Shown piece after piece: positions 1,999 to 23,937 of a stretch of DNA of 24,363 nucleotides (its first letter is position 1; the number at the start of each line of letters is the position of its first letter). The DNA is taken from the IMG/VR virus record IMGVR_UViG_3300050010_000493, positions 1 through 24,363 of that record; one strand, given 5' to 3'. Made by a program: the position numbers and the translations under genes. Source of the stretch: a virus. The notes beneath the pieces were generated by a model. The model had not been told where the DNA came from, did no database searches, and worked only from the letters and a program-made list of their open reading frames with translations.

Positions 1999-3684
1999 AT
2001 GGGCCTATCCAGTCGTATTAGAGCGAGTTTTTCAGCTTTCCGAAATTCTGGGGAGAGCACACTAGCGTCCCCCAGCTCCGAGCTGGTGCATGCGCTCGTT
2101 GGTCTGCCCGCTGCCGCCGGAAAAGTTGTTACTCGCGAAACTGCTATCCGCGTGTCGGCATTTTTAGGCGGCGTGAAAATGCTGAGCAACGACCTCGCCA
2201 AGATGCCTCTGATTCTGCGTGAAACCAAGAAGGTGGCTGGCCGCCAGCGCACACAGCCCGCGATCGACGAGCCTCTGTATTCGCTGCTAAAGGACTGCCC
2301 AAACCAATACCAGACCTCCTATCAGATGCGCTGGTTCCTTGCCAGCCAGTTGATCATGAATTCAAATTGTTACTGCCAAAAAATCACCGACCAAGCTGGT
2401 GACATCACCGCACTTATTCCATTGAACGCCTGGCACACGACCCCTTTTTGGGATCGAAGCACGAATCCTCCTACCCTCAAGTATCGGTACACCAATGCGG
2501 GCCAGGGCGGAATGACAGAGTTTACTCAGGATCAAATCTGGCATGTGTCTGCACTCAACCTCGAAGGATTCGGCCTCGAAGGTTCCCCCACCATTCTTCT
2601 CGCCAAGGAGGCGCTGTCGCTGCTCATGGCAGCGGAGGAGGTAGCGGGGCGCAACTTTGCAAATGGCTTGGGCATGAGCGGCTTCATCTCATTTCCGGAT
2701 GCCGACCAGGCACCGGATGAAAAGGCCGGACAAAACATCATCGATCGACTGCGTAAGGACTTCGCCGGTTCGCAAAATGCGGGCAAGTTCTCGATCATCC
2801 CTGGTAACGGGAAGTTCGAGAAAATGTCATTTAACGCTGCTGAATCACAACTTCTGGAGTCGCGTAAGTGGTCAGAGCAAGAAGTCGTGCGCTTCCTCGG
2901 TGGCGCTCCGCTGCTGGTGAAGATGGGCCTCGGAGAGCAAAATTCCACCTACGCGAGTTCCTCAGCCTTTTTGGACGAATACTTCAACACTTCGTTGTTG
3001 CCCTATACAGCCGCGATAGAGCAGTCGATTACTCGCGATCTCATCCCGCGCAAGAAGTGGGGTAAGCTCTATGCAAAACACAGTGCCGACATCATCCTTC
3101 GTGGTTCTCCAAAGGAGAGAGCCCAAACCAACTCGGCCCTGATCAATAGCTGGCAGATGACGCCGAATGAGGCACGCCTGCTTGAGGATCGTGACTCCAT
3201 CGAGGGCGGAGACTTCTTATCAGGCCCGGCGAACGGAGCCATTTACAACCCAGTTACGGGTGAATTTTTCATCCCCGGCCAAAAGATACCTGATGCAGAT
3301 GATCCGGACGATGCAAATGAGGAGTCAGGTGAGTCTGCTCCCGATGTGCCTGGCCCAGATGCAGCCGGTGATGGTGATGGCAACACGGAGCCACCTTTCA
3401 AGCATCCCGCGCCGCCAAAGCCAGCGAAGAAGCCCGCCAAGAAGGCTGTCCCGGCCAAGCCCAATAAGGCTAACGCCCGCCTTCAGGCCCTCGCCAACAG
3501 CATGGCCGACCGCGTGATGCGCAAAGAGTTAAAGTCAGCTCCGGATGCTAAATTCGTGGCCGAGGTATTGAGTGTCGACATCGAGGCTGCCACCGAATAT
3601 GTTGAGTCGCGCAAAAGTTTGAACGATGAAGAGGCCCGCGCAGCATTAGTCGCTCTGGCCGTGGGAGACGACAATGACCAATAA
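1999..3684 (+). CDS. HK97-family portal protein with long charged C-terminal extension
   Basis: The portal is the dodecameric ring at one capsid vertex through which DNA enters and leaves. The 561-aa product has the usual HK97/GTA portal features: an early VTRETAIRVSAFLGGVKMLSND segment split by normal spacing, a WHVSALNLEGFGLEGSP motif near residues 180-195, and the late TPNEARLLEDRDSIEGGD motif near residue 400. I prefer ATG 1999, with GAGAG upstream, over the in-frame TTG at 1987. After about residue 425 comes an unusual tail: an acidic Asp/Glu/Pro stretch, then a Lys/Pro/Ala-rich stretch (KPAKKPAKKAVPAKP), then about 80 helical-looking residues. This is longer than a standard HK97 portal C-terminus. 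The end overlaps the protease gene by 11 bases. Confidence 0.93.
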   Translation: MGLSSRIRASFSAFRNSGESTLASPSSELVHALVGLPAAAGKVVTRETAIRVSAFLGGVKMLSNDLAKMPLILRETKKVAGRQRTQPAIDEPLYSLLKDCPNQYQTSYQMRWFLASQLIMNSNCYCQKITDQAGDITALIPLNAWHTTPFWDRSTNPPTLKYRYTNAGQGGMTEFTQDQIWHVSALNLEGFGLEGSPTILLAKEALSLLMAAEEVAGRNFANGLGMSGFISFPDADQAPDEKAGQNIIDRLRKDFAGSQNAGKFSIIPGNGKFEKMSFNAAESQLLESRKWSEQEVVRFLGGAPLLVKMGLGEQNSTYASSSAFLDEYFNTSLLPYTAAIEQSITRDLIPRKKWGKLYAKHSADIILRGSPKERAQTNSALINSWQMTPNEARLLEDRDSIEGGDFLSGPANGAIYNPVTGEFFIPGQKIPDADDPDDANEESGESAPDVPGPDAAGDGDGNTEPPFKHPAPPKPAKKPAKKAVPAKPNKANARLQALANSMADRVMRKELKSAPDAKFVAEVLSVDIEAATEYVESRKSLNDEEARAALVALAVGDDNDQ

Positions 3685-4561
3685 GTTTTTCAACGCGGAT
3701 CAATCGAACGGGACACTCACTCTGTCGTTCTACGACATGATCGGCGATATGGGATACGGCGACGACGGTGACAGCGCTACACCTGCCATGGTCGCGAACG
3801 CACTAAAGGGTGACTTCGACAACATCGAGCTACACCTCAACTCTCCTGGGGGGGACGCTTTCGCGGGCGTGGCAATTTACAACCTGCTTAAGGCGTGCTC
3901 CAAGCCGGTCAACGTGATCGTTGACGGCCTGGCTGCGTCTGCTGCATCGATCGTAGCAATGGCCGGTGACAACATCACGATGTGCGCTGGGAGTACCCTC
4001 ATGATCCACGAGGCTATGGCCATGGCGTTTGGCAACGCCGCCGACATGACCAAGATGGCGGACACGCTGACCACCGTTACGAGTGGCATTGCCGACATCT
4101 ACGTTGCGCGGACCGGTCTGCCAAAGAAGGACGTGCTCGCGATGCAAGCCGAAGAGACATGGATGAGCGCGGACGACGCTGTGAAGAAGGGTTTCGCGAC
4201 CTCGGTCAACAAGGACCAGTCCGCCGTCAAAAACTGCTTCGACCTGAAGCGATTTCGCAACGCGCCTGCCGCTCTCAAGATTGAGGCAAAGGTTGAGGAG
4301 CCGCCTGCCCCACAATGCACGTGCATCATGGATGGCTCGGTGCATTGCAATATCCACCCCGACGGTCCAGTAGTCACCAATATCAAAGCCGCCACCGAGT
4401 GTGAGTGTGAGTGCCAGCCCTGCGTTGACGGTGACTGCACCGGTTGCACGGGCGATCCTTGTGACTGCGTTGGATGCACATGCTCGCAGCATACGCAGGC
4501 AGCAGGCAACTCCAACTTGACCCTGTTCAGGCTGCAACTGGAGCTAAATAGGAGGAAGTAA
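3674..4561 (+). CDS. ClpP-like (S14) head maturation protease with cysteine-rich C-terminal tail
   Basis: This serine protease family processes the prohead by trimming capsid and scaffold proteins. Residues about 12-180 match the phage ClpP-like fold. They include LHLNSPGGDAFAG near residue 55, the nucleophile Ser89 in GLAASAAS, His112 in MIHEAM, and Glu161 in EETWMSADDA where ClpP has its acid residue. Glu seems to be common at that position in phage members. From Cys215 to Cys270 there is a striking tail with 13 cysteines plus several His/Asp/Glu residues in CxC, CxxC and ECECEC patterns, suggestive of metal binding. The last residues (LFRLQLELNRRK) resemble the ends of ordinary phage Clp proteases. 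The ATG overlaps the portal stop by 11 bases. The next gene is a connector, not the expected major capsid gene. Confidence 0.92.
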   Translation: MTNKFFNADQSNGTLTLSFYDMIGDMGYGDDGDSATPAMVANALKGDFDNIELHLNSPGGDAFAGVAIYNLLKACSKPVNVIVDGLAASAASIVAMAGDNITMCAGSTLMIHEAMAMAFGNAADMTKMADTLTTVTSGIADIYVARTGLPKKDVLAMQAEETWMSADDAVKKGFATSVNKDQSAVKNCFDLKRFRNAPAALKIEAKVEEPPAPQCTCIMDGSVHCNIHPDGPVVTNIKAATECECECQPCVDGDCTGCTGDPCDCVGCTCSQHTQAAGNSNLTLFRLQLELNRRK

Positions 4562-6687: not shown

Positions 6688-6923
6688 TGGCAAACGCTGT
6701 GGCAGGTCCTGGATGTGCGGTATATCGAGCGTTGAGTGGTCTTGGAGTCGTCCCCGGCCATTGTAAAGAGATCACCATCAAGATCGCCTGCGATCATGCG
6801 GTCACCATCACCTACGAGTGCTGGCTGATCGATGAGATCGATGGCCCGATTGCTGAGGCAGTGATCTCAGACGCTCGCGATGCCAAGTCGAAAATAAACT
6901 ATACCAGACCGGAGGAGCTGTAA
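6687..6923 (+). CDS. Small protein of unknown function, coupled to the glycosyltransferase gene
   Basis: This is a 78-aa protein I do not recognise. It is overlapped by one base at each end (TGATG with the gp10-like gene, TAATG with the glycosyltransferase gene), so it looks translationally coupled in an operon. It has no signal peptide or membrane segment. The middle is a likely beta-strand run (EITIKIACDHAVTITYECWL) and the C-terminus is charged and helical. Three cysteines are spread through it. Its size and beta content would fit a minor virion or accessory protein, but the sequence does not show a function. Confidence 0.7.
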   Translation: MANAVAGPGCAVYRALSGLGVVPGHCKEITIKIACDHAVTITYECWLIDEIDGPIAEAVISDARDAKSKINYTRPEEL

Positions 6924-7660
6924 TGTCGGATTTGCCTCAAGTTAGTGGGATTCTCCCAGTCGGGTACGGCGACAAATACTTTCGCGTTGCCGCTGATGCG
7001 TTTCTCGCCTCTACATATGACGGCGAGATTGAGCTGGTGATCCTCGACAACAACGAGTCTCCACTCGATCCAAGCCTGCTGCCTGACGATCCGCGTGTGA
7101 AGTATTACCATTGCGATCGCATGCCTGTAGGCGCCCTACGCAACCTCGGCACGAGTTACGCAACCGGCGATATCTTCGTCACGATCGACGAGGACGATTT
7201 CAGCGGCCCGGAGCGTGTGAGCAAGCAGGTCGATCGCCTCCTCAGCACGGGTAATTCTGTAACCGGCTTCCATTCGATCTTTTACTACGATATGAGCAAC
7301 GGCCAGACGTACAAGTACTGGTATGAGCCCAACCGGCCTCACCCACCCTACGCGTGCGGCAGCAGCCAGATGTACACCCGCGCCTGGTGGATGGAGCACA
7401 AGTTCCCGGAGACCGGCATCGAGGATTACCTCTTCCAGCTTGAGGCCCTCAACGCCAACCAGCTCGACAGCATCGACGGAGCAGAGCTGCTGGTCGCCCG
7501 CGCCCACGGCGATTCAGTTTGCGCCCACGACCAGTATGGCCGCCACAGGCAGTTTCCTCCGGTTCCGAAGGATGAGTTACCCGCAGAGTTCTATGCCGCG
7601 ATCGCCCCTAAGGTCATCGCTAAAACCAAATCCGAAACCAAAAGCAAAGCAGGAGTATAA
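6923..7660 (+). CDS. Glycosyltransferase family 2-like protein inside the tail module
   Basis: This 245-aa product has the hallmarks of a GT-A fold transferase. An N-terminal strand is followed by IELVILDNNESP at residues 36-47. An RNLGTSYATGDIFVTIDEDD block (residues 73-92) contains the DxD-type metal/nucleotide-sugar site at Asp89-Asp92. An acceptor-side segment follows, with CGSSQMYTRAWWM and FPETGIEDYLF, where the ED pair is typical of the family. It probably transfers a sugar from a nucleotide donor; the acceptor is unknown. The C-terminus is Lys-rich. It overlaps the upstream 78-aa gene by one base and ends three bases before the first tail tube gene, so it would be co-expressed with structural genes. 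Candidate acceptors are a virion protein, phage DNA or host surface glycan. It is not part of the standard HK97/GTA late set. Confidence 0.82.
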   Translation: MSDLPQVSGILPVGYGDKYFRVAADAFLASTYDGEIELVILDNNESPLDPSLLPDDPRVKYYHCDRMPVGALRNLGTSYATGDIFVTIDEDDFSGPERVSKQVDRLLSTGNSVTGFHSIFYYDMSNGQTYKYWYEPNRPHPPYACGSSQMYTRAWWMEHKFPETGIEDYLFQLEALNANQLDSIDGAELLVARAHGDSVCAHDQYGRHRQFPPVPKDELPAEFYAAIAPKVIAKTKSETKSKAGV

Positions 7661-7663
7661 CCC

Positions 7664-8080
7664 ATGTCCAACCCCATCGTAGGCATCGGAGCGCAGTTTG
7701 AATTTGCGACTGTTATTTCCCCCACCGTATTCACAGCGCTTGCTGGCGTAGACTCAATCACCTTCAGCGGCGACAAAGTACAGGTTGAGAAGACCACAAC
7801 AATGGCCACCACCAATGGCGTAGATACATTCATCGGGTCAACTCAAGACCCAGGTTCTTGCGACGTCAAGGCATTCTTTCTCCCTGGAGACACTTCGCAG
7901 GTAGCGCTTGAGGCGATTCGCCTGGCAACAATTGCCGTCCAGATGAAAGCTCTGTACGGCACCTCGAACAGCAGGACCTTCTCCGGCATCGTCGAGTCGA
8001 TAACTCCGAGTTTTCCCCTCGAAAAGCCTGCCCGTCTTGACGTCAAAATCAAACTCTCTGGCCCATGGACCATCGTTTAA
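7664..8080 (+). CDS. Tail tube protein, copy 1
   Basis: This 138-aa protein has the small tail tube pattern. A variable N-terminus is followed by strands with FSGDKVQVEKTTTM, then DVKAFFLPGD, a helix (ALEAIRLATIAVQMK), and closing strands FSGIVESITPSFPLEKPARL and KIKLSG, as in phage tube proteins that end in a long beta hairpin. It stacks into the tail tube around the tape measure. AGGAG precedes ATG 7664. A close paralogue follows directly, about 80% identical over the last 113 residues by hand alignment, with most differences in the N-terminal 25 residues and in scattered positions. I cannot tell from sequence which copy is the main tube subunit. Confidence 0.78.
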   Translation: MSNPIVGIGAQFEFATVISPTVFTALAGVDSITFSGDKVQVEKTTTMATTNGVDTFIGSTQDPGSCDVKAFFLPGDTSQVALEAIRLATIAVQMKALYGTSNSRTFSGIVESITPSFPLEKPARLDVKIKLSGPWTIV

Positions 8081-8093
8081 TTAAGGAGCTACC

Positions 8094-8513
8094 ATGTCTG
8101 TTCTCCCTGATGTTGGACTCGGCGATGCGTTTTCTTACGCGACCGTCGCCGTCCCTGGAACTTACACCGTACTTGCAGGAGTTGATTCATTTGCCTTCTC
8201 CGGCGACAAAGTACAAGTCGAGAAGACCACAACGATGGCCACAACTGGAGGCGTAGACACCTTCATGGGTTCCACCCAGGACCCAGGCTCCCTTGATGTC
8301 AAGGCATTCTTCCTCCCTGGAGATACTACCCAGGTGGGGCTTGAGGCCATTCGTCTGGCGGGTGTCGCCGTCAACATGAAGGCGGCCTACGGCACGTCGA
8401 ATACCTGCACCTTTGCTGGCATCGTGGAATCTATGACTCCGAGTTTTCCGCTCGAAAAGCCAGCCCGACTTGACGTCAAAATCAAAGTGACGGGCGCAAA
8501 GGTATACGTCTAG
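8094..8513 (+). CDS. Tail tube protein, copy 2 (tandem paralogue)
   Basis: This 139-aa protein is a tandem duplicate of the preceding tube gene. The blocks GDKVQVEKTTTMATT, DVKAFFLPGDT and TPSFPLEKPARLDVKIK are identical or nearly so, while the first 26 residues and the last six have diverged. A clear AGGAG lies upstream of ATG 8094, and 13 bases separate it from copy 1. The TAG stop is followed within 20 bases by a strong GC hairpin. Either copy may be the major tube subunit, with the other forming a specialised ring or a minor tube component. It may also be a recent duplication kept without specialisation. Family assignment is by pattern only. Confidence 0.78.
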   Translation: MSVLPDVGLGDAFSYATVAVPGTYTVLAGVDSFAFSGDKVQVEKTTTMATTGGVDTFMGSTQDPGSLDVKAFFLPGDTTQVGLEAIRLAGVAVNMKAAYGTSNTCTFAGIVESMTPSFPLEKPARLDVKIKVTGAKVYV

Positions 8514-11741: not shown

Positions 11742-12397
11742 TGGCATATCCAGTAATGCCGACAATGCCACTGTCCATGGCCGCCGGACTCAAAAAGAGT
11801 CCCCGGTGGAATACGGTGCGGCAAAAGGGCCCAGCCGGTATCAACGCGGCTATCGCTTTGATGCCGTTTTGCGTCTGGGATTTTGAGTTCTCCCTTGATA
11901 ACATCACCGGCCACGAGCACACCGCCTCCTCCGTAGTCGCGCAGATGCTCGGCACCTTCATGGCCACTGCAGGCGGCGCAGGATTGTTCCTGTTTGCGGA
12001 CCCCCAAGATAACTCCGTGACTGGTGCACAGTTCGGCAAGGGTGACGGGACCAGCAAGTCGTTCCAGCTTAGCCGCAACATCTATGGCTACCCAGACATC
12101 ATTCAAAACGTCAACGGGACGCCATCCATATATGTAGGTGGCACCCTCACCGCTCCAGCATCAATTACCACCACCGGGGTGGTGACATTCGCCACTGCTC
12201 CTGCAAGTGGTGCGGTCCTCACTTGGACCGGGAATTTTATGTATGCCTGCAGGTTCGCGGAAGACACCATCGACGCAACCCGTAACTTTACGATCAACAA
12301 CGGCATCGATCACTGGATGATTCAAGGGGTCAAATTTTCTAGCGAATTCCTGCCGACTTCCACCTACGGCATCATCGCTGCTCCCGGAGGCGTATAA
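11741..12397 (+). CDS. Distal tail protein (DUF2460-like, GTA g12-like)
   Basis: This 218-aa protein matches the DUF2460 pattern. After a short lead come WNTVRQKGPAGINAAIALMP, WDFEFSLDNI, GAGLFLFADPQDNSVTGAQF, GKGDGTSKSFQLSRN, VNGTPSIYVGGT and ATAPASGAVLTWTGNF, followed by a strand with CRFAEDTIDAT. In the Rhodobacter GTA this family forms the distal tail ring between tube and hub. ATG 11741 shares its A with the tape measure stop codon. The insert with NGTPSIYVGG..TTTGVVTFATAP is a small Ig-like beta domain common in these proteins. Confidence 0.86.
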   Translation: MAYPVMPTMPLSMAAGLKKSPRWNTVRQKGPAGINAAIALMPFCVWDFEFSLDNITGHEHTASSVVAQMLGTFMATAGGAGLFLFADPQDNSVTGAQFGKGDGTSKSFQLSRNIYGYPDIIQNVNGTPSIYVGGTLTAPASITTTGVVTFATAPASGAVLTWTGNFMYACRFAEDTIDATRNFTINNGIDHWMIQGVKFSSEFLPTSTYGIIAAPGGV

Positions 12398-13312
12398 ATG
12401 AAACGCCTCATGCCATCCTCACTCATCTCCTGGCTCGCTGCGAATCCCAACTGTGTTCGCGCCGACATTTTTACCATCTACTTGCCCAACGGTCAGTTTC
12501 TGCTTGCGACCGATGGCCAGTTCGACATTACCATCCCCGCCGGGACACCGGGCTGGACAAACCCGACCGCGACTTACTCCGCCTCGCTGTGGGGCCAATG
12601 GTCGCGTGGTGCCATAACATCGGATGCCTCCTTTGATTGTCACTCCAACACAATGGATTTAACGTGCATCCCGCAACTTGGCACGACCTTTCCGGGAGCA
12701 CCGACAGGGATTCTCAACGCGGCTCTCAACGGTCTCTTCGATGCTTGCGGGATTATGGTGCAGACTGTCTATTTCCCGCTGGGCCAATACGGCAATGTGA
12801 GCGCTGGGGTGGAGACCAAGTTCTGGGGTCAAATCACTGACATCCAGAGCATCGCTCGCACCAGCGTCAAGTTCCAATGCGCTGATTACTGCTACCTGCT
12901 CAATGTCAAGGTGCCCACGCGCATCATCCAATCCAATTGCCCATGGGGATTCTGCGATGTCAACTGTGGCCTCACAGCCGCGACTTACACCACCAACTTC
13001 ACTGCAGCGACGGGTACGACAGGTTGGACACTGATTCCCGCTACGGCGTTCACACAGGCCGCCGGGTACTTCACTCAGGGTGTTGTGAAGTGCCTCAGCG
13101 GTGCCAACATTGGTCTAAGTCAGTGCGTCAAGCTGCACGCGAGTGGACAGTTGCAAGTGATGTATCCCTGGCTATTCACGCCCGCTGTCGGCGATACCTT
13201 CAGCGTCATATCGGGGTGCGACAAGTCGATCACCACCTGCGGCCAGAAGTTCAGCAACAAAATCAAATTCGGCGGGATGCCTTTCGTTCCGCCACCACAG
13301 AATGCGGTCTGA
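12398..13312 (+). CDS. Tail hub protein (DUF2163 / BR0599-like, GTA g13-like)
   Basis: This 304-aa protein follows the DUF2163/BR0599 layout: N-terminal hub beta barrels, then a C-terminal region with the diagnostic cysteines. Cys181 and Cys190 lie in CPWGFCDVNCGL, and Cys274 and Cys281 in GCDKSITTCGQKF, followed by FGGMPFVPPPQNA. The related lambda protein gpL binds an Fe-S cluster through cysteines in its C-terminal region; a similar site here is an inference from the conserved spacing. An extra Cys186 lies between the first pair. ATG 12398 comes directly after the previous stop. The hub joins the distal tail ring to the tip protein encoded two genes on. Confidence 0.87.
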   Translation: MKRLMPSSLISWLAANPNCVRADIFTIYLPNGQFLLATDGQFDITIPAGTPGWTNPTATYSASLWGQWSRGAITSDASFDCHSNTMDLTCIPQLGTTFPGAPTGILNAALNGLFDACGIMVQTVYFPLGQYGNVSAGVETKFWGQITDIQSIARTSVKFQCADYCYLLNVKVPTRIIQSNCPWGFCDVNCGLTAATYTTNFTAATGTTGWTLIPATAFTQAAGYFTQGVVKCLSGANIGLSQCVKLHASGQLQVMYPWLFTPAVGDTFSVISGCDKSITTCGQKFSNKIKFGGMPFVPPPQNAV

Positions 13313-13314
13313 TC

Positions 13315-13782
13315 ATGTTGACTCAAACACAACGCGAAGCAGTAGTTGCCATTGCAGATAGCTGGCTCAATACCCCGTATCGCGGGTGGAGCAAAGTCAA
13401 AGGCGCGGGGGTTGATTGCGGGATGCTGCTTGCAGCGGTATACCAGGAGGCTGGACACATCCCCGAGGACATCGACTTACCCAAGGACTACCCACTCTTC
13501 CTCGGCCAGCACCGCGCCTCCACGGAGTACGTCGACCTGGTGCTTCGCTTCTTCCGCGAGATACCAGAATCGGAAGTCCAGCCAGGAGACATCGTCGTAT
13601 GGCGTCTCATCGGTTCAAAGTCGTTCTGCCACGGCGCGATAATCCAGTCGTGGCCTGACTACTTTATTCATGCATTCAACACCTCGGTTCGTGCGGGGAA
13701 CGCTCAGTCACGGCTGAGGTTTCTCAAGTCGGAGAAAGTGTTTTTCACTCTTCAAGATCAGTATTGTGAGGCCTCCTCATGA
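13315..13782 (+). CDS. NlpC/P60-type cell wall peptidase of the tail tip (GTA g14-like)
   Basis: This 155-aa protein has the NlpC/P60 cysteine peptidase pattern: TPYRGWSKVKGAGVDCGMLL with nucleophile Cys35, then PGDIVVWRLIGSKSFCHGAI with His106, and YFIHAFN with His119 as candidate third residue. The family cleaves peptidoglycan stem peptides, and in phages it opens the wall during DNA entry. ATG 13315 is two bases after the hub stop. The frame is open back to 12937, but that part overlaps the hub gene and lacks family features. The stop overlaps the tip protein start as ATGA. Its place between hub and tip genes is exactly as in GTA-like and many Gram-negative siphophage modules. Confidence 0.9.
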   Translation: MLTQTQREAVVAIADSWLNTPYRGWSKVKGAGVDCGMLLAAVYQEAGHIPEDIDLPKDYPLFLGQHRASTEYVDLVLRFFREIPESEVQPGDIVVWRLIGSKSFCHGAIIQSWPDYFIHAFNTSVRAGNAQSRLRFLKSEKVFFTLQDQYCEASS

Positions 13783-16700
13783 GCAACGTATTTGGCGGGG
13801 GCGGTAGCAACACGCCCGACAAACTATTCGGGGTAAAGGTCAACAGCTCCGAACTCGGCAAGCCTGTCACCTGGATAATGGGCTGCATAAAAACCAACCA
13901 GCAAATCCTCTGGGAAGACGGGTTCAGTTCGCAGGCAGTAAGCAGCGGCGGCAAAGGAGGAGGCAAAGGCAGCTCTAGCGACATTTATTCCGTCAACCTG
14001 ATCGCCGGTCTTTCCGCTGGTCCCATCTCTGGCATCGGCGATGTGTGGTCGGGTCAGTCGTGGCTGGGTTCACCAAAGGCGTATGAGAGTTACACTATCG
14101 CATCTCCGTCTTACACGTACACACCCACCAACGCCAGTGCGCTAACCAACGATTATGGGGTCACACCCACCAGCACCTACTCCGCCAACTACAATGATTA
14201 CTCCTCGCCAGGCTCAACGACCGTCAGCAACACCACCTCGGTGCCCTTCAAGAAGGTCAGCTACGGCACAACGCTGACCACGGGCACCTACAGCGTCAAC
14301 CCCTCTACGGGCGCGTACAACTACTCCTCCGCCGACGTTGGCAAGACAGTCCAAATGGCTTACAGTTATCTGCTGACGACCATCAACAACCAAGAGACCG
14401 ACATCGTACCGGCGGGTAAGGCCATTATGGTCGGAGGCAACTTCGCCTTCAACGCCGATCTCGGCGTGGTGTATGCGGGCACTGGAGCCAACTCGGGTAC
14501 CGCTCTCAGCAAGGTGAGTGGAACTCCGACCGCCATTGGGACTTATGCACAAACCGGCTCGGCACCGGCTACGTACAAGTTTGCATCAGGTGACGTCGGC
14601 GCCGAAGTCACCCTCACCTTCCAAATTAACAACCCCGGCGCTGTAGGACAGAGCGAATCCACGATGCTGGATTTCACGCTGGCTACAGGCAACATAGGGC
14701 AGTCTCCTTACAGCTTTCTGTCCGGCAGCTACCCTGGTGCGGCCCTCGGCTACAGTGGGATTGCCACTGTGCTCTACGAGCCGATGGATTTGGGGTCGGG
14801 TGGGGAGGTGCAGGAAAACAGTTTCGAGGTGATTACACCGGACATCTATGGCGGCGTCTATGCCAACGGCGCGGCAATCCTGGATTGCAATCCAGTTCAA
14901 TGCATGACCCGCGTGCTCACGGATACGGCGCAGGGACTCGGTGTTGGGGCTATCCCTTTCCCGGCAGCCTTCATCGACAACGGCCCCGGCGGTACATGGG
15001 GCGCACCTGGCACGGCAAGCGTGCAGAGTGTTGGAGCCACGGCCTGGAATTGGTTTGCTGCAAACAACTTCTTCATCAGCCCGTCGTTAGACTCGCAAGA
15101 CACCGCCGACTCCACCATGAGCAAGTGGCTTGAGGCTGGCATGTGCGCATCCTTCGTGAGCGAGGGCCTGCTCAAGCTCGTACCTTACGGCGACACAACC
15201 ACGGCGGCCAATGGTTGCACATGGACTGCGCCCACTACTTATGTGGCTGCGTTGGATGATACCTGCTTCGTGGCCAAGGAGGGCGCCGATCCAGTCAGCA
15301 TCAAGCGTTCCGCCTGGCAGGATGCTTTCAATTGCGTGCAGGTGCAGTGGGACAATCGCGCCAATCAATACGCCAAAGAAATCACTGAGGAGAGCGACCA
15401 AAGTCTGATCAATCGCTACGGCTCGCGCATCGAAGACCCGCAAGACTGGGGCTTTGTTCATACACTTCTGGCTGCTACGTTTGCTGCAAACATGCGCTTG
15501 AAGCATGGCACCTATGTCCGCAACACGTATGAGTTCACGCTGCCCTTCATCTATTCCTACTTGGAGCCGATGGACTTAGTGACGCTCACCACGTCCAGCG
15601 TGTGGGCCCAGGGCATCTCCAACACCAACCTCGGAGTCACCAACCTCCCGGTCCGCATCACCAAGATCGTCGATGATCCAATCGAGGGCCTGAAGATCGA
15701 GGCGGAGGATTATCCGTTTGGTGCTGGTTGCGCAACGCTTTATAACAAGGGCCAGTCGGCTGGCGAGGTAGTCTCCAATGCTTATGCGTCGCCGGGTACA
15801 TCGGAGGTCGTACTCTTTGAGGCCGCTGGACGCCTGACTGGATACCAGGGGAACCAGCTATGGATCGGAGCCTGTGGCACCGGCGAAAACTACGGATCAA
15901 CCAACGTGTATGTCTCGCAGGATGGAACCAAGTATTCGCAAATCGCGCAACTGACCACACCGAGTGTGATTGGCGAACTGGCCGCTGCCTTCCCTGTGAC
16001 CGCCGACCCCGACACCACGAGTTCGCTGGTAGTCCAGCTATGCGAAAACAGTGGCCCTCTCGCCTCGGGCACCACGGCGGCTGCTGACAGCGACTCCATG
16101 ATTTGCTACGTCGATGGTGAGGTCGTCAGCTACTCGGCTGCCACGGTCACCGGTCAAAACACATATACGATGGGCAGTTACATTCGTCGTGGACAGCTTG
16201 GCACCACGATCGGCTCCCATGCGATCGGCTCGTTGTTCATGCGCCTCGATGGTTCCATCTTCAAATACACCTATGACCCGCTGTGGCAAGGCAAAACGAT
16301 TTATCTGAAGTTTCAGGCGGTCAACAACTTCGGCAACAACCCGCAGCCATTATCAAACCTGGCGGCTGTCTCATTCACTCTCAAATCGACCAACAGCGGC
16401 GCTGTCTCTGCCTCCTCTGGATTGCTGATGACTGGCACCCCAGGCAACACGGTATCCGCGATCGACAGCACCGTGAACGTATTGCAAGGTTCTTCAGGCA
16501 TCAACAATGTTCCGCCGGGTTATGTACTTGTCAACAACACGGGCAGCACGGGCGCTCCGGTGTGGACACCCATCACATCGGTGCCTGGCGTGGGTGGCGG
16601 AAGCAGCCTCACGGTTAAAAACATATCAGCCAACTGGAGTCCCAACGCGGGAGATTGCGATTTAGTCACTACGACAAGCGGTAACTTGACTGCAACCTTC

Positions 16701-16886
16701 CCTCTGGCGGCTTCAAACGTCAATGGTCAGATTGTCGTCTGCAAAATTTCCTCGGACGCTAACACCATCACCATCGTCGGCAGTGGCGGCGACACAATCC
16801 GGAACGGTGCGAGTCTCACCATCCAATATCAATTCTCGTCTTGCACGTTCGTCAGCAATGGCGTCAACGGTTGGGACCTGATCTAA
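13779..16886 (+). CDS. Large tail tip / host specificity protein (GTA g15 or J-like)
   Basis: This 1035-aa protein closes the tail end. The N-terminus has the family pattern: GKPVTWIMGCIKTNQQILWEDGF split by normal spacing, a Gly/Lys linker (GGKGGGKGSSS), then YSVNLIAGLSAGPISGIGDVW. Two copies of a small beta domain ending in a YxY..ADVGKTVQM-like strand (residues about 157-200 and 218-284) are inserted early. The middle part contains the phage tail fold with PYSFLSGSYPGAALGYSG and further structural strands. The last 100 residues (from SLTVKNISANWSPNAGD) look like a fibre-end beta domain. It probably contacts the outer membrane receptor and holds the fibres. It overlaps the peptidase gene by four bases. 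Confidence 0.85.
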   Translation: MSNVFGGGGSNTPDKLFGVKVNSSELGKPVTWIMGCIKTNQQILWEDGFSSQAVSSGGKGGGKGSSSDIYSVNLIAGLSAGPISGIGDVWSGQSWLGSPKAYESYTIASPSYTYTPTNASALTNDYGVTPTSTYSANYNDYSSPGSTTVSNTTSVPFKKVSYGTTLTTGTYSVNPSTGAYNYSSADVGKTVQMAYSYLLTTINNQETDIVPAGKAIMVGGNFAFNADLGVVYAGTGANSGTALSKVSGTPTAIGTYAQTGSAPATYKFASGDVGAEVTLTFQINNPGAVGQSESTMLDFTLATGNIGQSPYSFLSGSYPGAALGYSGIATVLYEPMDLGSGGEVQENSFEVITPDIYGGVYANGAAILDCNPVQCMTRVLTDTAQGLGVGAIPFPAAFIDNGPGGTWGAPGTASVQSVGATAWNWFAANNFFISPSLDSQDTADSTMSKWLEAGMCASFVSEGLLKLVPYGDTTTAANGCTWTAPTTYVAALDDTCFVAKEGADPVSIKRSAWQDAFNCVQVQWDNRANQYAKEITEESDQSLINRYGSRIEDPQDWGFVHTLLAATFAANMRLKHGTYVRNTYEFTLPFIYSYLEPMDLVTLTTSSVWAQGISNTNLGVTNLPVRITKIVDDPIEGLKIEAEDYPFGAGCATLYNKGQSAGEVVSNAYASPGTSEVVLFEAAGRLTGYQGNQLWIGACGTGENYGSTNVYVSQDGTKYSQIAQLTTPSVIGELAAAFPVTADPDTTSSLVVQLCENSGPLASGTTAAADSDSMICYVDGEVVSYSAATVTGQNTYTMGSYIRRGQLGTTIGSHAIGSLFMRLDGSIFKYTYDPLWQGKTIYLKFQAVNNFGNNPQPLSNLAAVSFTLKSTNSGAVSASSGLLMTGTPGNTVSAIDSTVNVLQGSSGINNVPPGYVLVNNTGSTGAPVWTPITSVPGVGGGSSLTVKNISANWSPNAGDCDLVTTTSGNLTATFPLAASNVNGQIVVCKISSDANTITIVGSGGDTIRNGASLTIQYQFSSCTFVSNGVNGWDLI

Positions 16887-16923
16887 CGAACGAACTTTCA
16901 GACTCATAAGTAGGAGCTACATC

Positions 16924-19900
16924 ATGAGCGTTTTTGAAACGATCAATCAGGGAACTCCGGGAACCAATGCTACGGCATGGCCGGTTGAACTCACAGACGG
17001 CACAAACATCCTGGGCACGCCCACCCATCCTGTGAAGACCGATCCAACGGGCACAACGACACAGCCGGTCAGCGGTACGGTCGCTGTGTCTGGAGTAGCC
17101 GGTACGGTCGCCGTCACGGAGTCGGGCACATGGACTGTAACTGCCACGCAGCCAACAGCAGCCAACTTGAATGTCACGGCAGCTCAGCCGACAGCAGCGA
17201 ACCTCAACGCCACTGCTGTGCAAGGTGGAACCTGGACGCATCGCAACCAGGATGGCTCTGGGAACGCTCTCACCTCTACGTCGGGCGCGTTGGACAACAA
17301 CATCAAGACCATCGGAGGCACAGCCCCATCGACTGGCACCGGCGTCTCCGGAGCTGGCATTCCCCGCGTCACGGTATCCAACGACTCTGCGGTCAAGCTA
17401 TGGAACGGAACCAACACCTTGGCCGTGGACAGTACTGGTGCGGCCAATGCCAACATCACGGAGGTTGGTGGTTTCCCGTTGAGCCTCGGCCAGAAGACCA
17501 TGAGCCAGTCTCTCCCCGTTGCTTTTTCCTCCGACCAAACGCTAACCGTAAACGTCGGCGCCGTGTACAACAACCAGACCGGGACAATCTCCAGTGGTGC
17601 AGTCCCGACAACCGCTGGTGGCGCACTGACCATCCTCTCGGGCGTGTTTACGTGGTCCACGTTGGTTCTCAACTTTGTCCCAAGCGGCACGATTTCATTC
17701 GGTGGTGAATTCCAGGTTGAAGGATCGATCGACAGCATCAACTGGACGCCGCTGACGGGCACCCTCCTGTCGTCGAATCCGCAGCAGATCACCCAGTACC
17801 TGTCCACCAACTTCTCGATGATCTCTGCCCGCTACAACCTGGCGGGCTTCCCGTACGTCCGCATTCACACGATCGCTGGATTCTCCGGAACCATCAACGT
17901 GGAGTACGCACTCACCACGGCTCTCGGCGATGAGACGAGCTTCAGCAAAACGGAATTGATCGATGCGAGTGGCGCCGCAGTGACGCTCCCGACCCCAACC
18001 CAATACACGGATGGGGCAATGCCCTCCGGCGTACTCTACCAGTCGGGCTCGACGACGTTTACAGCCGTGGCGGATGGCAACCAGTGGATGGCGAGCCCCG
18101 TTTACGTGCTGCCCAAGTCCCCCGTCATCGGTGACACGCTGGTGGTTGCGCTGGTGGCGTTCGGGCCCAACGGCACCTCCCTGACTACGGCAAAACTTTC
18201 TGGCATGAGCCTCGTCGACTCGAACAATATCTCGTACGCGCCCGCAGCACTCTACGACTGCACGACAACCAAGTTTGGTGAAGCCGTCATCCTGTTCACC
18301 GTGCCCGTGACTCAGCTCGACTCTGAAAACAACCTGGGTTTCATAGCTGTCTGCTCCGCCATCTGCCCGACGAGCCTGTCCATCTTTGCCCACGAACTCC
18401 AAAACGTAAGCATCGGTACCTTGTCTTGTGGCCACACCACGGGCTCTTCGGGCAGCTCACTCACACCGTTGGCATCGGCTGTGGGCAACTTCCCAGTTAC
18501 ACTGTTGGTCACCCAGACGAGTGGTAACCTCCAGCCCATCGTCCCGGCTTATGCCCAATCGCAATTTGTGGACTCAGCGTATTGGGGCATCACGGGTTCG
18601 AGTTTTAACGCGATCACCTATGGGTCAGTCACGAACCAAGGATATGATCTCTTTGCTGTCGCGGCCCCTATTGTCTCGAAGGGCACGTTGATGATGGGGC
18701 AGGCCTTCGGCACCGCGCAATTTTTGCCACTTAATGTCTCAACAACCGGAGTGCTGAATACTTCAACCACGATCGTAGGAACTGTCCCGGTTGCTGCCAG
18801 CCAGAGTGGCACCTGGACGATGACCAACCCGTCCGTCGGCAGCACTGGATCAGCGGTCCCAACCTCGGCTACCCTGGTTGGCACCAAAGGTTCGACCGGG
18901 AATCTAACAGACTTGCTTTCTGACACGAGTGGCAACCTGCTGGTCAACATTGCTGCGGGTGGCGTCAGCTCCAACGCCGCTGCCGCTGCCACGGCTGCAG
19001 TCGTGCCCGCCGCCGCAAGTTACACGGGTATCAATATCGCGGGTAACTTGGTGGGGCAAACAGGCCTCTCCCTCACGAACTCAAAGGCTGCGGCTGTTGC
19101 GATTGTGGATGCCAACGGAAACCAAATCACCAGCTTCGGCGGTGGCACGCAATATATCCAAAATGGTGTATCAACCACCCCCACCGGCACGGTTGCCATG
19201 GGGTTATGCTCCTCCAACAATGGCATCGAGGCACTGTCAGTAGACACGACCGGCCACCTCAACGCCAACATCATCAATACGCCCAGCGTCACAGTCAGTG
19301 GCACTCCCAGCGTCACTATCAGCGGTTCTCCCACAATCACTGGCACGGTCAAAAACCAGGATGGTTCAGGCAACGCCTTAACCAGCACGAGCGGCGCCCT
19401 CAATGTAAACGTCACTGGTGGCGCCACCTCCGGGACTCAGTATGTCGCAGGGGCAGCCGCCGCCACACCTACTGGCACCGTAGCAATGGGCTGGGATGGA
19501 ACGGATGTCCGGGCCATAAGCACCACCACCACTGGCATCCAGAACGTAACAGGGACGGTCGCGTTGAGTGCGCCCGTCGGAATCACAGGATCGACTGGTT
19601 CGATCCTTGACGCCACCCAAGGTGCCGCAGCTCCGGCCAACATCCTGCAGGTGGGTGGCGTCTATAACTCGACTGCCCCTACCCTGGCCACTGGTAAACT
19701 CACCGCGCTGCAAACGGATATTGCTGGCGACTTGAAGGTGAGCCTTGCGGCGACGAGTGTGACTCTACCAGTTAGCATCCTGTCTGGCAGCACGGCACTA
19801 ACAAACACCAGCGGCGCGTTAAACGTCACCCTCCAGTCTGGCAGCACGGCATTGACAAACACCAGTGGTGCGCTCAACGTCAACGTCACCAACAGCTCAA

Positions 19901-20925: not shown

Positions 20926-21348
20926 ATGAGCACTCTCAACTGGACAGGTATGTGGAGCGGCACAAACACCTACAACGTAGGCGATGCCGTGTCGTACCTG
21001 GGGTCCTCCTACGTGGCTGCTGCGGCGAACACTGATGTGACGCCAAACAATAATCCGACCGCGTGGAATCTGCTGGCCGCTGCGGGTGCGGTAGGGCCGC
21101 AAGGTAGCGCTGGTATCAATGGTGCCTCAGGCTCCGGGGTCCCGCAAGGATTGAACTGGCGCGGAGCCTACTCCACTCTCACAAGCTACAACGCCTACGA
21201 TTGTGTCTCGTTTAACAACTCCTCTTACATATGCACGCGCAACGGCGTACTTAATTTAGAGCCAGACAGCAACCCTGCTTACTGGGGAGTCTTGTGCGAG
21301 GGTGGCACTGGTGGTGGCAGTGGTGGTGGCAATGGCAGCGTAGCTTAG
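20926..21348 (+). CDS. N-terminal part of modular tail fibre, ending at an in-frame amber codon
   Basis: This is a 140-aa open frame from ATG 20926, with AAAGGG just upstream. It holds two copies of a carbohydrate-binding-like module of the CBM5/12 type. Residues about 4-54 contain WTGMWSGTNTYNVGDAVSY, SSYVAAAAN and TAWNLL; residues about 75-128 contain LNWRGAYSTLTSYNAYDCV, SSYIC and AYWGVL. Between them is a short collagen-like GPQGSAGINGASGSG linker. A Gly/Ser-rich linker (GGTGGGSGGGNGSVA) runs into TAG 21346. The same frame continues openly for another 862 codons in fibre sequence, so this is not a natural protein end by composition. It could be made as a short product, or as the front of a full fibre if the amber codon is read through. 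Confidence 0.78.
   Translation: MSTLNWTGMWSGTNTYNVGDAVSYLGSSYVAAAANTDVTPNNNPTAWNLLAAAGAVGPQGSAGINGASGSGVPQGLNWRGAYSTLTSYNAYDCVSFNNSSYICTRNGVLNLEPDSNPAYWGVLCEGGTGGGSGGGNGSVA
21346..21348 (+). other. In-frame amber codon interrupting the fibre gene
   Basis: TAG is codon 141 of a 1003-residue-plus frame. The residues after it (GAITGTLTNQADLQTAL) align with a second copy further on, at 21976 (GAITGTLANQTDLSTAL). There the preceding codon is TGG (Trp, 21973-21975). One G-to-A change from TGG explains the stop. Other genes here end in TAG (terminase, tube copy 2, chaperone G), so TAG is not globally reassigned in this genome. Confidence 0.85.
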
Positions 21349-23937
21349 GGCGCTATTACCGGCACGCTGACTAACCAGGCCGACCTGCAGACGGCTTTGA
21401 CCACCAAGGTCAATGCATCATCCTTGGCGACCGTGGCGACATCCGGCTCTTACAACGATCTCTCAAGTAAGCCCACCATCCCAGCCGCGCAAATCAACTC
21501 TGACTGGAGCGCCTTATCCGGTCTCGCGCAAATCAAAAACAAACCCACACTTGCGGCAGTTGCCTCATCAGGCTCCTATACCGATCTAACTAGCAAGCCA
21601 ACGATACCCACGGTCCCAACTGCGGTTTCTGCGTTCAGCAACGACTCCGGCTACCTTACTTCTACCAGCCCGGTTGCCGCTGCCAAAGTCACCGGACTCG
21701 CGGCAGTTGCCACCTCAGGTTCTTATACCGACCTGAGTTCCAAGCCAACGATACCTGCCGCGCAGGTCAACAGCGATTGGTCTGCTGCATCGGGTGCAGC
21801 ACAAATTTTGAATAAGCCCACTATCCCAGCCGTCGTAACCTTCAAGGTAAACGGGACCAACACCGGCTCTCAAAGCATCCTGAACGCCAAAGCTGGAGCC
21901 AACATGACCATCACCGATGATGGAGTCGGTGGCCTAACTTTTACGTCAGCCGCTTCGGGTGGATCAACGTCGTGGGGAGCTATCACCGGCACACTGGCAA
22001 ACCAAACTGACCTGTCGACAGCGTTGAATGGCAAGGCAAACTCATCGGCCTTGGCGACCGTGGCCACGTCAGGTTCTTACGCGGACCTGTTGAACATACC
22101 CACTATTCCTGCTGCTCAAATAGAAACCGATTGGAATGCGTCGACTGGGCTTGGCGTGCTCCTCAACAAACCAACGATTCCCACGGTGCCATCCAACGTA
22201 TCTGCGTTCACCAATGATGCGGGCTATCTGACTCCGACAACCGGGTTGGCCGCCAACGGCACGACGGTTGGAGCCGCGTCTCAAGCACAAGCCTTTGCCT
22301 CCGGTGTGAATGTCGGAGCTGCGGACAACTCTTTGGGCGGTAACCTCGTCGCGTACTCAACACTGGGACCTGAGCTTGCCCCTGCTCTCTCAGGTGCTTC
22401 GGGCACCAACTGGACTTTCGATTCGACTTGGACAGTGGCAGGGGGCACGGCGCAACATACCACAAATGGCGCAACCACCCTGGTTCCGACGAGCATGACT
22501 CTGACGGTCGGGACAGTGTATAGGGTGTCGGTTACTGCATCAGCAGTCTCCGTCGGAAGTTTCTCGTTCGGGATCGGTGGTTCAAACCCTCTAACAACCA
22601 TCAACTCAGGAAACCTGTCGTCTACGATCTTCCAGGCCGCGCAAACCACGGCAAGCATTGTGATCACCCCTACAAGCACTGCCCGTTTTACCATTAGCAG
22701 CATATCAATAAAAGCGCTCGCGACCACGCAGGGAGGAGTAACAGCCGATGGAAGCGTGCAAACGCGGACAGTCCTGGGGTTCCTGAACTCTGCCGGTGTC
22801 CTTGATACCGGCATATCTAGGAGCGTCTTCACCCCCGGGGCTATTCAAATCGGGAATGGGACCTTTGGGAGCTCATCCGGTTCCTTAGGCTGCGGCACGC
22901 TCACAGCCAATACGATCGGCCAAGCTAGCTCAACATTCATTCTGTCCGGTGCGGGCTGTAAGTGTTCATCCAGCGCCATCTTTTCTTTTTCGGCTTCAGC
23001 CTCGGCGGCCACCGCCGATACAGCTCTATCTCGCATCAGTCCCGGCGTTATAGCCATCGGAAACGGTACTGCCGGGAACGCATCAGGGACGCTAAACGTT
23101 GGCACGATCGCAGCCACGTCCATCAACGCATCAGCCGTGCAAACATTTGGGGCGGCTCAGCCAGGGGTGGTTTCAGCCTCTGGCGGAGGCACCACGAACT
23201 TCCTCCGTGCCGATGGTACATGGGCGGCGCCAAGCAGCTCCGGTGCAGCAGCCATCCCGACGATTCCCCGTGATGCCACGTGGCGCAGGATGATTGCGAA
23301 CCAAGGCACCACCAATGGGTACGATCAGCAGGGTCTCGCCATCATGCCAGCCGCTTCCGGAGTATTCGGCATCGACACGGCTTCCGGGCTCAGTTTCTAC
23401 GGGTCGGCTCAAATCACCACCCTTAATGTCTCTGTGGGCTTGTACACCAAAAACTACTACATCGGGACTCTCTCCCCGATGCCGTCGGCCTCGGCCAGCG
23501 CGACGCTCCAATTTCAGACCTATAACACGATTGCATTTATCGGATTGCTCTCCCATGCATATGCGATCGGCGGAAACGTGAGCTCCGCCACTTATCAGCA
23601 GAGCAGTGGCTCTCCATTCTATGGATTCCGCTTCATCTATGGCACAGACACAACGTGGAAGATACACCTGACCAGCGGTGGCAGTGATCTCCAAGTAATC
23701 GACACCGGCGTGGCTTTTGATTACACCAAATTCCACACCTTCGATTTGATCTACAACGCGAGCGCGGGGACCCTGACGTTCGGCATCGATGGTGTTGTCG
23801 TGGGTGGTGGACCCATCACGCCTACCGTCGCTCTGCCGCTTACCCAGTATTACTCCGCGATCTGGGCACAAGTATCGTCAGGCTCCGCGAGCGGTGGCGT
23901 CAATGCGGCGCAGATATACCAGGGCAGGGGCTACTAA
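21349..23937 (+). CDS. Main body of the tail fibre, in frame after the amber codon
   Basis: These 862 codons are in the same frame as the N-terminal module and are open to TAA 23935-23937. The first in-frame alternative start, TTG 21397, has no ribosome binding site and lies inside a conserved repeat. Independent initiation is therefore unlikely; the part is expressed by readthrough or suppression, or else lost. Residues begin with a GAITGTL...LATVATSGSY block. Four repeats of the SYxDLxxKPTIP type common in phage fibres follow (21427-22188). A beta-rich middle comes next, then FLRADGTWAAPSS, a usual fibre hinge near 23200. The last 250 residues contain a lectin-like beta sandwich (FYGFRFIYG.., FHTFDLIYNASAGTLTFGIDG) ending in IYQGRGY, probably the receptor-binding head. 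Confidence 0.72.
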   Translation, partial: GAITGTLTNQADLQTALTTKVNASSLATVATSGSYNDLSSKPTIPAAQINSDWSALSGLAQIKNKPTLAAVASSGSYTDLTSKPTIPTVPTAVSAFSNDSGYLTSTSPVAAAKVTGLAAVATSGSYTDLSSKPTIPAAQVNSDWSAASGAAQILNKPTIPAVVTFKVNGTNTGSQSILNAKAGANMTITDDGVGGLTFTSAASGGSTSWGAITGTLANQTDLSTALNGKANSSALATVATSGSYADLLNIPTIPAAQIETDWNASTGLGVLLNKPTIPTVPSNVSAFTNDAGYLTPTTGLAANGTTVGAASQAQAFASGVNVGAADNSLGGNLVAYSTLGPELAPALSGASGTNWTFDSTWTVAGGTAQHTTNGATTLVPTSMTLTVGTVYRVSVTASAVSVGSFSFGIGGSNPLTTINSGNLSSTIFQAAQTTASIVITPTSTARFTISSISIKALATTQGGVTADGSVQTRTVLGFLNSAGVLDTGISRSVFTPGAIQIGNGTFGSSSGSLGCGTLTANTIGQASSTFILSGAGCKCSSSAIFSFSASASAATADTALSRISPGVIAIGNGTAGNASGTLNVGTIAATSINASAVQTFGAAQPGVVSASGGGTTNFLRADGTWAAPSSSGAAAIPTIPRDATWRRMIANQGTTNGYDQQGLAIMPAASGVFGIDTASGLSFYGSAQITTLNVSVGLYTKNYYIGTLSPMPSASASATLQFQTYNTIAFIGLLSHAYAIGGNVSSATYQQSSGSPFYGFRFIYGTDTTWKIHLTSGGSDLQVIDTGVAFDYTKFHTFDLIYNASAGTLTFGIDGVVVGGGPITPTVALPLTQYYSAIWAQVSSGSASGGVNAAQIYQGRGY
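21427..22188 (+). repeat. Four divergent fibre repeats of the SYxDLxxKPTIP type
   Basis: Copies begin near 21427, 21553, 21700 and 22054. Each encodes a VA(T/S)SGSYxDLxxxPTIP stretch. Three continue into AAQ(I/V)xxDW-(N/S)A..G...LNKPT-like sequence, and two carry a VSAF(S/T)NDxGYLT variant. The copy at 22054 is preceded by the same WGAITGTL block that precedes the first copy, where the Trp codon is an amber. Such repeats build a stiff shaft and allow recombination between copies. Confidence 0.8.

Follow-up and report, generated by a model that had tools for sequence, protein, structure and literature searches.

In phage Qbeta, the coat readthrough protein (A1) is made by reading through a stop codon into the long frame behind it. 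Where a phage recodes TAG, the codon is usually translated as Gln. Laboratory phage lambda has lost its side tail fibres, with a frameshift in stf relative to Ur-lambda (PMC3509688). Here, a tail-fibre gene with a single in-frame amber codon was analysed. It lies in a 24,363-base virus record from a metagenome (the window, meaning the whole stretch of DNA studied), a fragment that begins within the gene for the terminase large subunit and continues with head, tail and fibre genes. The gene resembles Qbeta A1 in that the frame of a virion protein stays open for a long way behind a stop, but the Qbeta stop is conserved and functional, whereas the stop in the window was common to no relative that we found. 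The likeness to lambda stf is that a small mutation appears to break a side-fibre gene in a phage that is otherwise intact and whose relatives have the whole gene. The lambda lesion is a frameshift whose laboratory history is known and whose phenotype has been measured; that in the window is a nonsense codon, present in the consensus of an uncultured phage. If real, the TAG would act in the same way as this well-known fibre loss in lambda (PMC3509688). Judged from the sequence comparisons below, its most probable origin is a single-base mutation of recent date or an error in sequencing, not a built-in switch, and the case is an ordinary one.

Translation of the frame at 20926-23937 (plus strand) gave 140 residues, a TAG at 21346-21348, and then 862 residues up to the TAA at 23935-23937. 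This bore out an earlier statement, made in a first-pass annotation, that one frame is broken only by the TAG. Thus, what should be one uninterrupted frame in a fibre gene of the GAITGTL/KPTIP type with a CBM5/12 head was interrupted in the window at 21346. The 862 codons behind the TAG contained neither a second stop nor a frameshift, as should be the case if the change is recent or false. The change from TGG to TAG is a transition and a single one suffices; 265 one-step nonsense changes are possible in the fibre gene, 65 of them transitions.

The gene combines a CBM5/12-like head with matches to tail-fibre families. The head (20926-21345, plus strand, 140 aa) consists of a CBM5/12-like module, a second CBM-like repeat that was recognised by eye and a Gly-rich linker, and it matched Pfam CBM_5_12 (E 6.8e-10) and the tail fibre family PHROG 5073 (E 6.3e-24). 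In isolated Rhizobium phages, fibres with a similar CBM-like region are each encoded by one gene, with the annotation concanavalin A-like protein. The shaft (21349-22341, plus strand) is built from repeated GAITGTL..Q.DL modules and KPTIP repeats, matched the tail fibre family PHROG 9729 (E 7.9e-31) and has relatives in many viral contigs. The C-terminal domain, a candidate for receptor binding, occupies 23233-23937 on the plus strand, including the stop TAA. It is concanavalin A/laminin-G-like at a level below the family cut-off, with the last 234 aa scoring 22.6 bits against Laminin_G_3 (E 1.3e-4; cut-off 27.6), and structure prediction of this tip domain gave no usable model (mean pLDDT 29.7).

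With the large tail protein (13779-16886) as the query, 28 related viral loci were retrieved. The head was followed by the same module in two relatives, L100 (3300022861_000050) and L115 (3300047640_000006), whose large tail proteins were 91% and 83% identical to that of the window, respectively. Their fibre heads were 80-87% identical to the head in the window with a dN/dS of about 0.1. At the junction, L100 has NISWGGIAGTLSNQTDIE and L115 has NVLWGGITGLLSDQADLE; both encode Trp (TGG) where the window has the TAG, and neither has a stop. The L100 fibre was uninterrupted as far as it was read, and the L115 fibre was a single 661-aa ORF uniting the CBM head, the module and the C-terminal domain (L115:17101-19086). 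The fibres of L115 and the window have in common the head, the W-G-x-I-x-G module and the C-terminal domain, all within one gene; the L115 fibre differs in carrying TGG instead of TAG and in a shaft made mostly of collagen-like repeats instead of KPTIP. Over the last 234 aa, the window gene shared 68% identity with the C-terminal end of the L115 fibre, and a codon comparison gave a dN of 0.24, a dS of 1.8 and a dN/dS of about 0.13, a rough ratio given that dS is near saturation. This comparison indicates that the tip behind the TAG has been under purifying selection in the past, and the 862-codon open stretch is therefore not due to chance. Single-sequence patterns retrieved no relatives of the C-terminal half, and a two-sequence alignment of the tip domain used as the query again found L115 as the only match.

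Other relatives in the clade kept the head but had quite different downstream parts, mostly collagen-like, and thus the fibre is modular. Across the lineage (L115:17101-19086, L100:9923 onward, L091:16933 onward and the window at 20926-23937), the CBM head was constant and the shaft was exchanged for collagen-like, KPTIP or other repeats, with the tip common to the window and L115. A separate gene for the tip was seen in none of the other relatives with the head. At the DNA level, the isolated phages contained no match to the window. In the search for a host, a scan of genomes with the tail protein found no match, and the best identity of the terminase was 39%, in widely differing bacteria.

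The internal TAG (21346-21348, plus strand) replaces a Trp that was otherwise invariant. Among the other distinct module copies, from loci fetched by protein searches without bias towards TGG, Trp was present in 11 of 11. This count of 11 Trp to 1 stop predates the fetching of loci with the TGG pattern, and a later count of 116 Trp to 1 stop is biased by including those loci. The pattern of TAG followed by GAITGT, TAGGGNGCNATHACNGGNAC, had four matches in 2.9 million viral contigs, all of them lacking the fibre motif and lying outside long open frames. With TGG in place of TAG, at least 120 stretches matched in the same collection, and the fibre motif was present in 111 of the 119 distinct matches listed. 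The scan for the TAG form may omit records very near the window and could thus hide a strain with the same TAG. The exact pattern of the site, whatever the middle base of the codon, matched no other viral contig. Another contig of the same phage (L089), from metagenome 3300037134, was 100% identical over 12009-19646 (7,638 bases) and ends before the TAG site.

A single change from TGG to TAG is favoured by the TGG in both relatives that have the head and the module and by the 661-aa ORF in L115, as well as by the Trp in all 11 unbiased module copies and the absence of TAG with GAITGT from fibre frames. With a probability of about 0.86, we therefore consider the locus to be one tail-fibre gene (20926-23937) that is cut by a single-base change from TGG to TAG at a conserved Trp, either as a real variant or as an error in the consensus. 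Counted against this reading are that no second record of the phage covers the site, that the orthologous junction was available in only two relatives, and that an amber in use as a leaky stop would still be compatible with the sequence. Four explanations had been offered by the first-pass annotation; a one-base nonsense mutation and a sequencing error were supported by the relatives, but programmed readthrough and a suppression switch lost ground since the TAG was not conserved. The comparison of related phages at this codon, which had been proposed as a check, gave TGG in L100 and L115 and not the conserved TAG predicted by readthrough or a switch.

If the TAG were the signal for programmed readthrough, the gene would yield the head as a short protein and the long fibre in a fixed proportion. 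The frame stays open for 862 codons behind the stop, with no good start just after it, as would be expected of such a gene. However, the stop was missing in both relatives with the junction and in all other module copies that were not selected for TGG, a TAG form of the motif was absent from fibre frames in the viral contigs scanned, and the RNA after the stop folded no better than shuffled sequences (z 0.12). The stop was thus not conserved in the way that programmed readthrough demands, and we regard this explanation as extremely improbable.

Another possibility is that a full-length fibre requires TAG to be decoded as an amino acid, either by the host or by means of a phage tRNA. Such suppression or recoding would fit a gene that is intact apart from one stop, and since the record is a fragment the tRNA could lie elsewhere. 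On the other hand, the window contained no tRNA, and 13 related records, all of them fragments, yielded one good tRNA, for Thr (CGT); an amber suppressor tRNA was found in neither. The lost residue is Trp and not the Gln that is usual in TAG-recoding phages. TAG also terminates three other genes in the window, including the terminase gene, and reading past it in the terminase and the two other genes adds only 12, 0 and 27 codons, respectively. These genes show that the codon is not reassigned throughout. In an amber-recoded phage, TAG would seldom terminate genes and would often occur inside them, but here only one in-frame TAG was seen in the interior of a gene. Suppression or recoding therefore has a very small chance of being correct. 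Scarcely more credible is a real amber that is maintained as a leaky or host-dependent switch deciding whether the virions carry a lectin-tipped fibre.

The downstream part could instead be a second gene, translated separately by internal initiation. The first in-frame start after the stop, TTG at 21397, has no Shine-Dalgarno sequence, in agreement with the earlier view that the downstream half lacks a credible start. That view was too strict with regard to the first in-frame ATG, at 21904-21906 on the plus strand, a possible weak internal start with a Shine-Dalgarno-like GGAG five bases upstream and a duplex energy of -5.6 kcal/mol, which is similar to the -4.5 kcal/mol of the gene's own start, ATG 20926. 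Initiation at ATG 21904 is thus conceivable but weakly supported, as the GGAG match is short enough to arise by chance and about 185 shaft codons behind the stop would be discarded. In addition, the L115 homologue forms one ORF and is not accompanied by a separate gene downstream, and such a gene, which the first-pass annotation had named as evidence against an interrupted fibre, was absent from both relatives with the module. Two genes are consequently very unlikely.

A paralogous copy of the module with an intact TGG (codon 21973-21975) is located at 21973-22122 on the plus strand. The alignment confirmed that TGG occupies the corresponding codon of this block, which lies 627 bases downstream and reads TSWGAITGTLANQTDL compared to VA*GAITGTLTNQADL at the stop site. 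The two 150-base blocks (21346-21495 and 21973-22122) were 71% identical at the DNA level. Their longest exact match was 16 bases and was located 76 bases beyond the start of the stop, a weak placement for the proposed restoration of the fibre by recombination with the TGG copy. The words around the TAG recur at a length of at most 11 bases. With shared words this short, a misassembly in which the two module copies were collapsed is also unlikely.

Returning to the one-letter change, the intact form would, as in L115, be a single chain with a CBM-like head, a repetitive shaft and a lectin-like tip. If the TAG is a real and recent nonsense variant, the product would be a head fragment of 140 aa, and the shaft and tip would be lost unless the host suppresses amber codons; alternatively, the TAG may be an error in the consensus. 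We infer a recent, unprogrammed change that would deprive the fibre of its tip. The annotation should show a single fibre gene, with an internal stop whose status is uncertain, and not two genes. There is little consequence beyond annotation, but if the amber proved to be fixed, it would add to the examples of natural fibre loss.

Other features were noted in the window and in a related record. A glycosyltransferase family 2 gene (6923-7660; Pfam E 3.4e-11) lies in the middle of the head-tail block, directly before the tail tube genes. These are two tandem genes of the major-tail/tail-tube type (7664-8080 and 8094-8513), 78% identical over 130 aa, the first of which matched the PHROG major tail protein. 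Among the head genes, a Clp-protease-like gene (3674-4561; Pfam E 2.7e-29) has a Cys-rich C-terminal tail. Finally, in L241, from the same record as L091, a tRNA-Thr (CGT) at bases 51-123 adjoins an ORF at the contig end that was judged by eye to be integrase-like, an arrangement suggestive of a temperate relative with a tRNA gene as its integration site.
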